Shown in pieces: positions 1,875 to 7,018 of a stretch of 39,510 nucleotides of DNA. Position numbers and translations under genes: made by a program. Origin of the DNA: Miltoncostaeales bacterium (lineage in GTDB: Bacteria; Actinomycetota; Thermoleophilia; Miltoncostaeales; Miltoncostaeaceae); assembly GCA_030829765.1 (NCBI GenBank), contig JAUROO010000040.1:1-39510 (forward strand), in the 5' to 3' direction. Positions within the stretch are counted from its first letter, which is position 1. Each line of letters starts with the position of its first letter. Below the pieces are notes generated by a model, which had not been told where the DNA came from, searched no databases, and was given only the letters and a program-made list of their open reading frames with translations.

Positions 1875-3973
1875 CACTCACCGCCCTTCAGGACGAGGAC
1901 CTCGAAGTCCGCGACCCGACCGTACGCCTCACCCGCCCTTCGCACCAGCGCGTGACGGCGGTCACGCACTGCGGGATCGTCGGCGTTGACCATGACATCC
2001 TCGAAGAACGCGTCCACGGCCCCGGACAGCTCGGCGGCCGCCGTGATCGCGCCCGCGGCATCGCCCGCGGCCCGCGCGGCCTCCACGGCCTGCTCGCCCA
2101 CGGCGAGGGCATCGGCGAGCCGGTCCTCCGCCGGGTCACCGGCCGAGGAGTACCCGGATATCCCATGCTCCGAACCGCTCACGATGCGACGGCAGCGGTT
2201 GGCGCCCATGGCGGCGCGGCCCAATCCGGCATCCTCGCGCGCGGCATCGAGGGCGCGGGCCCACGCGGCGATCGAGGCGACCCCGCCCACATCCGCGGCC
2301 AGTGCCGCGCGCACCGCATCGGCCGGCACTCCCTCCTGCCCCATCTGATGCACGAGCCGGTCGGCGATGAACTCCCCGAGGGCCTCCAGTGCGGCGTCAT
2401 CGGACAGCGCGAGGTCGGCCCCCTGTCGCCGGAAGCGGTCCATCGCCGTTCGGAGGACCTCCGCGGGGCGCAGATCCCATCCGCGATCGAGCGCAACGCG
2501 GACGAGGCCGGCTGCGGCACGGCGCAGTCCATAGGGATCACGTGACCCGGAGGGGATCTCGTCGATCAGGAAGGCCCCGGCGAGGTTGTCCACCTTCTCG
2601 GCGCACGCGAGGAGCGCGCCGGGCATGGATGCGGGCACCGGTGAGCCGGGGCCCTCCGGCAGGTACTGCTCGGCGACGGCCACGCACACCTCGGCGGGGC
2701 GCCCGGCCAGCGCGGCGTAATGCGACGCGGCGAAACCCTGGAGCTCGCTGAACTCCGCCACGAGGATCGCACCCTGGTCCGACTTCGCGAGCGCCGCGGC
2801 CCCGGTCGCGGCCTCGACATCCATAGGGTCGGCTCCCACGGCATCCCCGAGGTCCGCCACGCCGGCAATGAGTCGGTCCCGCTTATCGGCCAGTGTTCCC
2901 AGGCGGGCGTGGAAGACGATCGCCCCAAGGCGGGCGTCCAACTCGTCCAGGCCCGCGGCGACGTCCCGCTCGTACGAGAAGGCGGCATCCTGGAGGCGCG
3001 CGTCCAGCACGTCCTCGTTGCCGCGGGCAATGATCTCCGCCGCACCCGGATCCCCATTGGATACCGCGAGGAACGCGGGCATGAGGTTCCCACCGGAATC
3101 GTGCAGCGGCATGTATCGCTGGTGGCTCTGCATCGCGGTGACGAGCACCCTCTCGGGCAGCGCCAGGTGCTGCTCTGCGATGCGCCCGGTGATGACGCTC
3201 GGCCACTCGACCAGGTGCACAACCTCCTCGATCTTCCCGGCGGGGTCGCTCCAGGTGCCGCCCGCCGCGGCCGCGGCGGCGTCGAGGCCCTCGAGGATCG
3301 CCTCGCGTCGCTCACCGTGGTCCGCGATCACGAATGACGAGCGCAACCGTGCGCGGTACGCATCGGCGGAGGAAATCTCCACCGGCCCGCCGAGGAACCT
3401 GTGCCCCCGGCTCCATGCGCCGGCGGGCACGCCGGCCACCTCGAACGTCATCGCCCGGTCCCCCACCACGGCCGTGATCCAGCGCACCGGTCGCGAGAAT
3501 CGCAGGCCCGTGCCATCCCCCCACCGCATGGTCTTCCCGAACCGCAGGCCCTCCAGCACCCGCCGCGCGATGTCCGGCATCAGGTCGTCAAGCGGGGCAT
3601 CGTCGGCTGCGAGGTCCACCCAGACGAACTCCCGCCCGCTGGAGGGGTCCTCGCGCACCACCAGGTCGGACACCTCCACGCCCTGGCCGCGGGCGAATCC
3701 CGCGGCCGCCTTCGTGGGGACGCCATCCTCGCCGAATGCCGCCTGCACCGCCGGCCCGCGGACCGCCCGCGCCTCTCCCCCCTGCCGGGCGGCCACGCCC
3801 TCGCAGGAGACCGCGATACGGCGCGGGGCCACCCACGCGCACGGCTCCCCCGAGGCGTGCAGGTGCAGGTCGGCCAGGGCGGCGGCCAGCAGGCCGGGCG
3901 CCTGCGCGATGGCCTCACGGCAGGCGCTCGACGGAAGCTCCTCGCAGCCGATCTCGATCAGCAGGTCAGGCAC
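1874..3973 (-). CDS. glyS: Glycyl-tRNA synthetase beta subunit
   Basis: Beta chain of the bacterial alpha2beta2 glycyl-tRNA synthetase, which provides tRNA recognition and completes the active enzyme with GlyQ. The protein starts [14 protein letters not shown], the family's usual N-terminus. It carries [21 protein letters not shown] (about 157-177), a classic GlyS signature, and ends in a helical anticodon-binding-like region. I chose the GTG at 3973, which has GGAG seven bases upstream and overlaps the glyQ stop by eight bases. The alternative ATG at 3988 has no ribosome site and adds only MRSPP. The predicted length of 699 residues is close to the roughly 690 usual for the family. The stop TGA overlaps the ppdK ATG by one base, so glyQ-glyS-ppdK should be one transcript. 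Confidence 0.96.
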
Positions 3974-4853
3974 CGGCGGGCTCCGCATCGGATGGCGACG
4001 ACGTCGACGCAAGCCAGTCCTCCGCGCATCGCGCGGCGAGGGCGCGGACGCGCCAGATGTAGGCCCCGCGTTCGGTGACGCTGATCACCCCTCGGGCGTC
4101 CAGCAGGTTGAAGGCATGCGAGCACTTGAGCACCTGGTCGTATGCCGGAAGCACCAACCCGGCATCCAGGCATCGCAGGCATTCGCGCTCATGATCGTCG
4201 AAGTGCCGGAACAGGGTGTCCACGTCGGCCACCTCGAAGTTGAACGCACTCCACTGCCGCTCGTTGTCGCGGTAGACATCGCCGTACGTGACGCCCGGGG
4301 CCCACTCGAGGTCGTAGACGGAGCGCACCCCCTGCAGGTACATCGCGATCCGCTCGAGCCCGTACGTCAACTCGACCGGGATCGGCGCAAGGTCGATGCC
4401 CCCCGCCTGCTGGAAGTACGTGAACTGGGTGATCTCCATGCCGTCCAGCCACACCTCCCAGCCGAGGCCCCACGCGCCCAGCGTGGGCCCCTCCCAGTCG
4501 TCCTCGACGAACCGCACGTCGTGCACCGCGGGGTCGAGCCCGAGCGCGGTGAGCGAGCCGAGGTAGAGATCCTGCACGTCCTCCGGCGAGGGCTTCAGGA
4601 TCACCTGGTACTGGAAGTAGTGCTGCAGGCGGAAAGGGTTCTCGCCATACCGCCCGTCGGTCGGGCGGATGGAAGGCTCCACATAGGCCACCCGCCAGGG
4701 GTCGGGCCCAAGGCTGCGAAGCAGCGTGGCGGGATTGAAGGTGCCCGCGCCCACTTCGGTGTGGTACGGGTGCATGAGGGAGCAGCCGCGCGACGCCCAG
4801 TATGCGTGCAGGTCGAGGATGATCTGCTGGAAGGACGGGGCAGGCGCTGACAC
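3966..4853 (-). CDS. glyQ: Glycyl-tRNA synthetase alpha subunit
   Basis: Class II aminoacyl-tRNA synthetase catalytic subunit that forms glycyl-adenylate and works with GlyS. The sequence [18 protein letters not shown] at the N-terminus, then [38 protein letters not shown] and [20 protein letters not shown] are hallmark GlyQ segments. The predicted 295 residues fit the usual size of about 300. The open frame runs further upstream to about 5027, but that extension would cross the divergent gene and reads as arginine-rich noise. The GTG at 4853 lies eight bases after a TATGCT -10 box and has no Shine-Dalgarno sequence, so the mRNA is probably leaderless or nearly so. It overlaps glyS by eight bases. 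Confidence 0.96.
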
Positions 4854-4861
4854 GGGGGCGC

Positions 4862-4867
4862 AGCATA
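4862..4867 (-). promoter_or_regulatory. -10 box of glyQ-glyS-ppdK
   Basis: TATGCT on the minus strand fits TANNNT. With initiation seven bases downstream the transcript would start at about 4855, two bases before the glyQ GTG. No convincing -35 is visible. Supported by the same arrangement at several other genes here; not measured. Confidence 0.55.
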
Positions 4868-4891
4868 GCCGCCGCGTCCGGCTGGGGCGTC

Positions 4892-4897
4892 TAGGGT
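4892..4897 (+). promoter_or_regulatory. -10 box of the C5-epimerase-like gene
   Basis: TAGGGT lies 17 bases before the ATG at 4915, giving a predicted leader of about 11 bases. It stands back to back with the glyQ -10 box, about 24 bases apart, so this short region would drive two divergent units. No clear -35 or Shine-Dalgarno sequence is visible. Confidence 0.4.
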
Positions 4898-4914
4898 CAG
4901 GACGCACCCCACGC

Positions 4915-6471
4915 ATGCCCCGTCGCCCCACATCACCCGTGCTGACCGCCGCCCTCCTCGTCGGGGTCCTCTCGGCCTCCGTGGCCCTCGGGTGGACCGT
5001 TGCCCGGCACACGTCGGGAGTCGCCACCCGCGATGAGTGGGTGGCCCGCGGCGACCCGGCGGAGCCCGCCTACGTCCAGGAGCCCCCGGAGGCCCGTCGG
5101 GCGGGACGCGCACGTCCGGCACAGACCGTGCCGGCACCCGTGGAACCGATTCCAATCGGCCGTCCGGACGTGGGCACACCGGCCGTCGCCGAACCATCAG
5201 GGGCCGAAGGCGTGACGCCCGGTCGCACCATCCCGGCCGTCCCCGCGCCTCCCGCGGCAACCGCCACGACGGCCCCCCAGGCACCGGAACCCCCTGCCAC
5301 GCCCGCCGACCCGTCCGAGCCCGCGCTCGAGCCATACGACCCGCCGCCCGCGATCGGCATCGCCGCCGAGGCGCTCCCGCCGGACGGCGCGGCATGGTCG
5401 ATGATCACGGGGGCGCGGCGCGCCGCAGCCCCGGGCTCGCAGGAGCGCATCGACCTCGACTGGTTGGTGCAGTTCGCCCGCGAGGCCGCCGCCCCGGGCC
5501 GGCCGGAGGGCCGGAGGGCCACCGCGCGACGCGCCCTGCGCGTGAATGCCTGGTGGTACGCCACGCGTGAAGCGCCCGGCGCACGTGTGATCGCCCGCGA
5601 CCCCGAGGGCGTCATCCTCACCTACCGCCGCGGGCACGGGTTCATGGTGAATCCCGTCGCCACCATGGGGCGTTGGCGTGACCTGAACACCGCCTGGACT
5701 CCCGCTCAACTGGCCGACGCGATGCTGCCGATGATCGTGGAACGCGGGCACCCGGGCGGGGCGTGGGGAGCCCTCGAGTACTTCGATGTGCCCGGCGACC
5801 CGAGTGCCATCCGCCCAGGGGTGTCGGCCATGGCCCAGTCCCGCGGCGCCGCGCTGTTCGCCCGCGCGTGGCGGACCACGGGGGATCCGCGCTATCGGCA
5901 GGCGGCCGGTCGGCTGCTGCGGGCATTCGCGGTGCCGGTGGACGACGGCGGGGTGCGGTCGGAGGTCCCGGACCCGGCCGGCGGGGCCCCCGGCACGTGG
6001 TACCCCGAGCGCGCGTACCCCGGGAGCGCGCCGTGGACCGGCGGTGCGCTGAACGGCTTCATGGTGACCCTGATCGAACTGCGCCGCACCGCGTCAGGCC
6101 TCGCCGACACCCCGACGGGGACGCCCGGCGTCGTCGCCACCGCCGCGGGGCCCCCCGCTGACGGGATCGACGAAGCCGGGGCGGGTGCCGACGACCCCGG
6201 GGCCGCCCTCGCCCGCGCGCTGGCCGATGATGGCGCCGTATCGCTCCGGCGGTTCCTCCCCCACCATGACAGCGGTTCGTGGTCCTACTACGGGCTGCTC
6301 ACGCCCGGGAGACCGTGGCGCTCATACTTGGCCGACCTCAACTACCACTGCTACCACGTGGCCCTCCTGCGCGACCTGCATCCGCTGTATCCCGACGCCG
6401 GCTTCGCAGGCGTCTCGGAGCGCTGGCAGGCCTACGTCGATGCGCGCGGTGCCCAGTGCCCGGCACGGTAG
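4915..6471 (+). CDS. Membrane-anchored protein with D-glucuronyl C5-epimerase-like C-terminal domain
   Basis: A 518-residue protein, probably exported. Residues about 9-30 are a hydrophobic segment after an Arg-containing start (signal anchor). Residues about 45-150 are Pro/Ala/Thr-rich and low complexity, as in a wall-spanning linker. The C-terminal half resembles the C-terminal domain of heparan-type glucuronyl C5-epimerases: [20 protein letters not shown] (305-324), [18 protein letters not shown] (373-390), [13 protein letters not shown] (450-462), YHCYHVALL (477-485) and a SERW motif (501-504). Family enzymes invert uronic acid units in polysaccharides using active-site tyrosines; Tyr458, Tyr459 and Tyr480 are candidates. 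An Ala/Gly/Pro-rich insert at about 400-428 interrupts the domain. The substrate is unknown and no polysaccharide genes lie nearby, so the enzymatic role is inferred. Next to glyQ by divergent promoters. Confidence 0.72.
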
Positions 6472-6520: not shown

Positions 6521-7018
6521 ATGCCTGAGTTGCCGCCACCCGCAGACCCGTCGAAGTCCTACACGGCCGTGTTCGACACGACCGCCGGCGAGATCCGCTG
6601 CGATCTGTTCGCCGCGGAGTCGCCCCAGACCGTCGGGAACTTCGTCGGCCTCGCGGAGCAGGGCTACTACGACGGCCTGATCTTCCACCGGGTCATCCCG
6701 GACTTCATGATCCAGGGCGGCTGCCCGCAGGGCATCGGGACCGGCGGCCCCGGCTACAACTTCGCCGACGAGATCAACGACCACCCGCTTGTGCGGGGCA
6801 GCCTTGCCATGGCAAATGCCGGCCCCAACACCAACGGGTCCCAGTTCTTCATCGTCACGGCTGAGGCCACGCCATGGCTCGACGGCAATCACACGAACTT
6901 CGGCCGGGTCGCGGCGGGACAGGATGTCGTGAATGCCATCGGCACCACCGCCACGGGCGCGAACGACCGCCCGGTGGACGAGCAGCGGATCAACACGGTC
7001 ACGATCGAGGTCGCCTAG
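6521..7018 (+). CDS. Cyclophilin-type peptidyl-prolyl cis-trans isomerase
   Basis: Catalyses cis-trans isomerisation of peptidyl-proline bonds during protein folding. The 165-residue protein is a single cyclophilin domain with no signal peptide or membrane segment, so it should be cytoplasmic. The signature FHRVIPDFMIQGG sits at 55-67 and includes the catalytic Arg57. NTNGSQFFI follows at about 103-111, and PWLDGNHTNFGRV at 118-130 supplies the tryptophan of the cyclosporin-binding site. I chose the ATG at 6521 because of AGGAG five bases upstream; the frame is open further upstream but only inside the preceding gene. It has its own likely promoter. The next gene, the sigma factor, has a separate promoter. 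Confidence 0.95.
   Translation: MPELPPPADPSKSYTAVFDTTAGEIRCDLFAAESPQTVGNFVGLAEQGYYDGLIFHRVIPDFMIQGGCPQGIGTGGPGYNFADEINDHPLVRGSLAMANAGPNTNGSQFFIVTAEATPWLDGNHTNFGRVAAGQDVVNAIGTTATGANDRPVDEQRINTVTIEVA

Follow-up and report, generated by a model that had tools for sequence, protein, structure and literature searches.

Does a gene that lies beside glyQ in a freshwater actinobacterium encode an enzyme that inverts uronic acids outside the cell? The window (the whole stretch of DNA analyzed, 39,510 nucleotides from a Miltoncostaeales bacterium) had been read from its letters as carrying an epimerase-like open reading frame with a signal anchor and a linker, and this observation is confirmed: positions 4915-6471 of the forward strand encode an anchored protein of the C5-epimerase family. 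The sequence-only reading was right to place the frame beside glyQ but had it begin at position 4854, where there is no start codon; the genus relatives share an ATG at 4915, and with this conserved start the protein is 518 residues long. On the minus strand glyQ starts with a GTG at 4853, which leaves 61 bp between the two divergent genes. The gene, its neighbors, and the parts of its product are as follows.

3966-4853, minus strand: glyQ, divergent neighbor of the epimerase gene (sequence; synteny)
4915-6471, plus strand: anchored C5-epimerase-family protein, 518 residues (ATG start kept in genus relatives; Pfam)
4939-4998, plus strand: signal anchor, about residues 9-28 (hydropathy; same element in relatives)
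5020-5349, plus strand: Pro/Ala-rich linker, residues 36-145 (composition; relatives)
5350-5706, plus strand: helical N-terminal segment of the catalytic region; it holds a β-hairpin motif of 23 residues (model)
5818-6429, plus strand: C5-epim_C domain PF06662, residues 302-505 (Pfam; fold)
6091-6207, plus strand: low-complexity insert, residues 393-431 (alignment of relatives, model, dN/dS)
6521-7018, plus strand: cyclophilin-type peptidyl-prolyl isomerase, downstream neighbor (open reading frame scan; synteny)

The C-terminal domain belongs to the family of GLCE, the animal enzyme that makes the iduronic acid of heparan sulfate. A search with the Pfam model C5-epim_C (PF06662) gave a highly significant match over residues 302-505 (E = 7e-23; 81.5 bits against a cut-off of 23.3), and so the family assignment did not fail for want of one; the landmarks on which it had been based are also all present (AMAQS at 305-309, an 11-residue motif at 379-389, WSYYG at 456-460, and SERW at 501-504). 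Among solved structures phmmer found zebrafish GLCE (5e-7) and human GLCE (7e-5), a profile of 43 relatives matched the same two proteins in the PDB at E = 3e-48 and E = 6e-48, respectively, and hhalign of the core profile with the zebrafish GLCE segment gave E = 6.5e-33. NCBIfam held no model matching the epimerase protein. When residues 138-518 were modeled with AlphaFold2 (pLDDT 90.8, pTM 0.90), the sole Foldseek matches in the PDB at E<=1e-3 were eight GLCE chains (E about 3e-8), and the core (residues 262-514) superimposed on GLCE over 250 columns with a TM score of 0.67 and a deviation of 4.2 Å. The next PDB match had E = 6e-3, and no viral structural relative was found at E<=1e-3. At that threshold the predicted fold matches that of animal GLCE alone. 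The N-terminal part of the model is mostly helical and contains one hairpin, a motif common to the secreted branch of the PF06662 family. The β-sandwich and dimerizing hairpin domains of the animal enzyme were not found in the model or by a hairpin profile. Homology of the bacterial hairpin to that of GLCE, suggested by an apparent resemblance, was rejected, as the hairpin profile search finds no GLCE. Finally, dN/dS was computed against the closest relative (G078): the insert stands at 0.98, the linker evolves fast (0.62), and the domain, at 0.07, is under purifying selection. Given the Pfam match, the profile match to GLCE, and this low ratio, the observation is not a product of chance.

The catalytic residues of GLCE are E499, Y500, N510, Y560, and Y578 (PMC13308652). 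Four of the five align directly with residues of the protein, and a glutamate lies near the place of the other.

6007-6009, plus strand: E365, a Glu invariant in the clade and set back from the Tyr by two residues more than human E499 (alignment)
6016-6018, plus strand: Y368, aligned with human Y500 (alignment)
6052-6054, plus strand: N380, aligned with human N510 and invariant in 43 sequences (alignment)
6289-6291, plus strand: Y459, aligned with human Y560 and invariant in 43 sequences (alignment)
6343-6345, plus strand: Y477, aligned with human Y578 and invariant in 43 sequences (alignment)

The equivalent of Y500 is conserved at a level of at least 90% over the 43 sequences. Thus, a C5-epimerase-family domain with its catalytic tyrosines (Y368, Y459, and Y477) is supported, and the tyrosines are kept within a GLCE-type fold, a result that stands at the level of alignment and fold only. 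The displacement of the glutamate stems from an insertion of two residues between Glu and Tyr in the clade sequence W[YF][PV]ERA[YFH]; elsewhere in Thermoleophilia the position reads EEYP in a cytoplasmic-looking group and is variable in a secreted group. Human R563, whose position we read from the aligned YDLR, is replaced by Leu. As a check on the numbering, the Tyr of 6HZZ that aligns with Y477 is a Phe in the chain of 6I01, which we take to be a Y578F variant.

The domain is carried behind an anchor and a linker. The anchor is the sole strongly hydrophobic stretch of the protein (Kyte-Doolittle peak 2.05); basic residues precede it, and it lacks a lipobox Cys. The linker spans 110 residues, of which 25% are Pro and 20% Ala. 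Both elements had been reported (the linker at about 100 residues), and both recur in the genus, where relatives show the same order of anchor, Pro/Ala linker, and domain with poorly conserved linker sequence. The low-complexity insert ascribed to the C-terminal domain is likewise present; as the lowest-confidence stretch of the model, missing or very short in four relatives (L021, L023, L073, and L072), it is a neutral, disordered loop without sign of function. A sister protein (L022) has an apparent cleavable signal peptide and no linker, which fits action outside the membrane. No sortase motif or wall-binding repeat was seen by eye in the sequence, only PF06662 passes its Pfam cut-off, and the anchor is a membrane segment. 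The idea of an anchored uronic-acid epimerase thus holds in that a domain of the family is, we infer, placed outside the membrane behind anchor and linker, but the claim that it is wall-bound is not supported; what the sequence shows is anchoring in the membrane. All members of the clade have two cysteines, C479 (in NYHCYH) and C515 (in a C-terminal CPxR), that the other groups lack at these positions; the pair may form a disulfide, which would suit a protein located outside the cytoplasm.

The order glyS-glyQ-epimerase-cyclophilin-rpoD is kept in the genus. Members of the close clade occur in 15 of 20 genomes of the genus and in 27 of 42 of the family, and the gene is absent from five of the genus genomes, three of which are at least 90% complete. 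G019 and G049 have both glyQ and the cyclophilin gene with no epimerase gene between them (L083:1381-1860; L084:1335-1615), and G049 retains a degenerate trace of the epimerase start region (query residues 1-56 at 2e-4; L021 at 1.5e-9). On the strength of these two loci and the remnant, the ancestor of the genus probably already had the gene, which its descendants can probably do without and which some species have lost by deletion. None of the neighbors is carried over outside the genus in the relatives examined, except for rpoD downstream in L068; the contexts there include GGDEF/HD, aldehyde dehydrogenase, myo-inositol-1-phosphate synthase, and MGH1-like hydrolase genes. No plasmid-borne copies were found. 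As noted before, no capsule or glycosaminoglycan gene lies nearby, at least among the window open reading frames scanned, which are housekeeping genes. An attempt to deduce the substrate from the neighborhood was rejected because the window neighbors are housekeeping genes and the context changes beyond the genus. Contigs C20 and C123 of genome G100 (L045, L046) each hold part of an epimerase gene, representing either two copies or strain-level redundancy of the assembly.

What, then, does the protein do? It is probably an extracytoplasmic, membrane-tethered uronosyl C5-epimerase that acts on a uronic-acid polymer of the cell surface, with glucuronic acid to iduronic acid the most likely conversion. 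As a type II membrane protein it would be held in the cytoplasmic membrane by its N-terminal anchor, with the catalytic domain extended into the cell envelope on the flexible Pro/Ala linker. In the envelope, the helical domain would bind a uronic-acid-containing polymer and invert C5 of a uronosyl residue by removing the C5 proton from one face and adding a proton back from the opposite face; the most likely change is from D-glucuronosyl to L-iduronosyl, with Y477, Y459, Y368, N380, and perhaps E365 taking part. Against this reading count the displaced Glu aligned with E499, the change of R563 to Leu, the animal extra domains that were not found, the lack of an adjacent glycan gene, and the change of neighbors in the relatives examined outside the genus.

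Precursors for such a polymer can probably be made by these cells, as judged from the gene content of the genome. It contains a candidate UDP-glucose 6-dehydrogenase (best NCBIfam model TuaD, below the equivalog cut-off), whose neighbors are a sugar-1-phosphate nucleotidyltransferase and a LytR_C protein (L074). Relatives of this candidate occur in all 20 genomes of the genus, even where the epimerase is missing, with only the weaker paralogue matched in a few. In three genus relatives an in-frame intein interrupts the UDP-glucose 6-dehydrogenase (G067 C22, L085:231-3200, minus strand; G095 C184; G037 C12); that of G067 is 473 residues long and starts at the catalytic Cys motif (GGS^CLDG...VVHN^CFPKD). 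The intein matches LAGLIDADG_3 above the Pfam cut-off and Intein_splicing below threshold. The enzyme of the window genome has no such insert, and that of G100 is split over two contigs and may carry an intein too.

The genome also encodes an enzyme like UDP-ManNAcA dehydrogenase adjoining a WecB-type UDP-GlcNAc 2-epimerase (L075). This pair is consistent with a C5-epimerase that acts on a uronic residue other than glucuronic acid (ManNAcA, ManA, or GalA, for example) in a teichuronic-type or otherwise acidic wall polymer, as are the loss of R563 on the substrate side, the shift of E499, and the lack of heparosan-type synthesis genes nearby. Yet all of the nearest structures (E<=1e-3) act on glucuronic or iduronic acid and the catalytic tyrosine set is that of GLCE, so that we regard another uronate as an unlikely, if respectable, alternative to glucuronic acid. 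Less probable still is a polysaccharide lyase or other uronic-acid-active enzyme, which would abstract the same C5 proton and proceed to elimination rather than epimerization: the altered position of E499, a sub-threshold match to Pfam Alginate_lyase (16.2 bits against a cut-off of 22.2), and a distant Foldseek match to the polysaccharide lyase 5noa (E = 0.49) would accord with it, but the similarity to GLCE is far stronger and more specific, and the Tyr/Asn set of GLCE is kept. That the protein binds acidic polysaccharide at the surface and catalyzes nothing would suit a gene that is dispensable and has left a degenerate remnant, but is very improbable in light of its invariant active-site residues and the low dN/dS of the domain.

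How unusual is this presumed epimerase? PF06662 occurs in 136 of 249 sampled genomes (55%) of the class Thermoleophilia and, in a phylum sample of 297 genomes, in 25, of which 13 lie outside this class. These figures weaken the claim that the protein would be notable in an actinobacterium: it is less unusual than had been held. Its family is known and locally common, and what distinguishes this member is the anchored architecture. The records of relatives include Miltoncostaeales and Thermoleophilia metagenome-assembled genomes. Two records that bear the title Bifidobacterium breve (L056, L063) and one labeled Acidobacteria bacterium (L067) share the clade gene and the same glyS-glyQ/rpoD neighborhood, and so their titles are probably wrong. 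The tree, for which the program warned of long branches, places the clade with the secreted branch (95/90) and away from the cytoplasmic-looking group. One open reading frame of genome G197 (L010:385-2106, plus strand) has both glycosyltransferase family 28 C-terminal and C5-epim_C domains; it is possibly a natural fusion of sugar transferase and epimerase, which would suggest that epimerization and polymer synthesis are coupled there. A literature search by Pfam accession or family name returned nothing relevant on PF06662, and the family goes unmentioned in the Thermoleophilia marker paper. A single bacterial glucuronyl C5-epimerase is known (PMC13308652), as against domains with the same tyrosines in more than half of the sampled genomes of the class. 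We raise, tentatively, the idea that a class-wide extracytoplasmic lineage, with a rearranged Glu and a membrane tether, might remodel surface uronic-acid polymers after their synthesis and that C5-inverted uronate, such as iduronic acid, might be common and unrecognized in Thermoleophilia envelopes. If active, the enzymes would suggest that common freshwater bacteria bear polymers of the iduronic-acid type, and would offer new tools for the synthesis of heparin-like sugars.

Among known systems, the alginate C5-epimerases AlgG and AlgE likewise epimerize uronic acid at C5 at the polymer level, but with a β-helix fold unrelated to the helical fold of our protein. Animal GLCE (PDB 6HZZ, 4PW2) shares the PF06662 domain, the helical fold, and the equivalents of Y500, N510, Y560, and Y578. 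GLCE is also a type II membrane protein with its catalytic domain outside the cytosol, so that the bacterial tether is an analogous arrangement. The bacterial protein differs in its Glu, displaced by two residues, in the Leu at R563, in its long Pro/Ala linker, in that no β-sandwich or dimerization domain was found, and in its setting, a bacterial envelope rather than the Golgi. The cytoplasmic-looking (L002-L006, EEYP) and secreted (L024, L030) groups of Thermoleophilia have the same domain and invariant Asn/Tyr set, and the secreted group shares the β-hairpin motif and branches nearest to the clade; peculiar to the clade are the ERAY(P) insertion and a Cys that invariably follows the catalytic Tyr-His (NYHCYH; GYHCYH in L022), and, unlike the other groups, the clade is mostly membrane-anchored. 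RED65_08024 of Bermanella marisrubri, a bacterial GLCE relative considered here by its published description, is a glucuronic acid C5-epimerase active in vitro (PMC4432689, PMC13308652) with 37% similarity to human GLCE (PMC4432689). Haloarchaeal Agl32 also forms iduronic from glucuronic acid and has a helical fold; it keeps none of the catalytic residues of GLCE (PMC13308652) and is a separate solution to the formation of iduronic acid.
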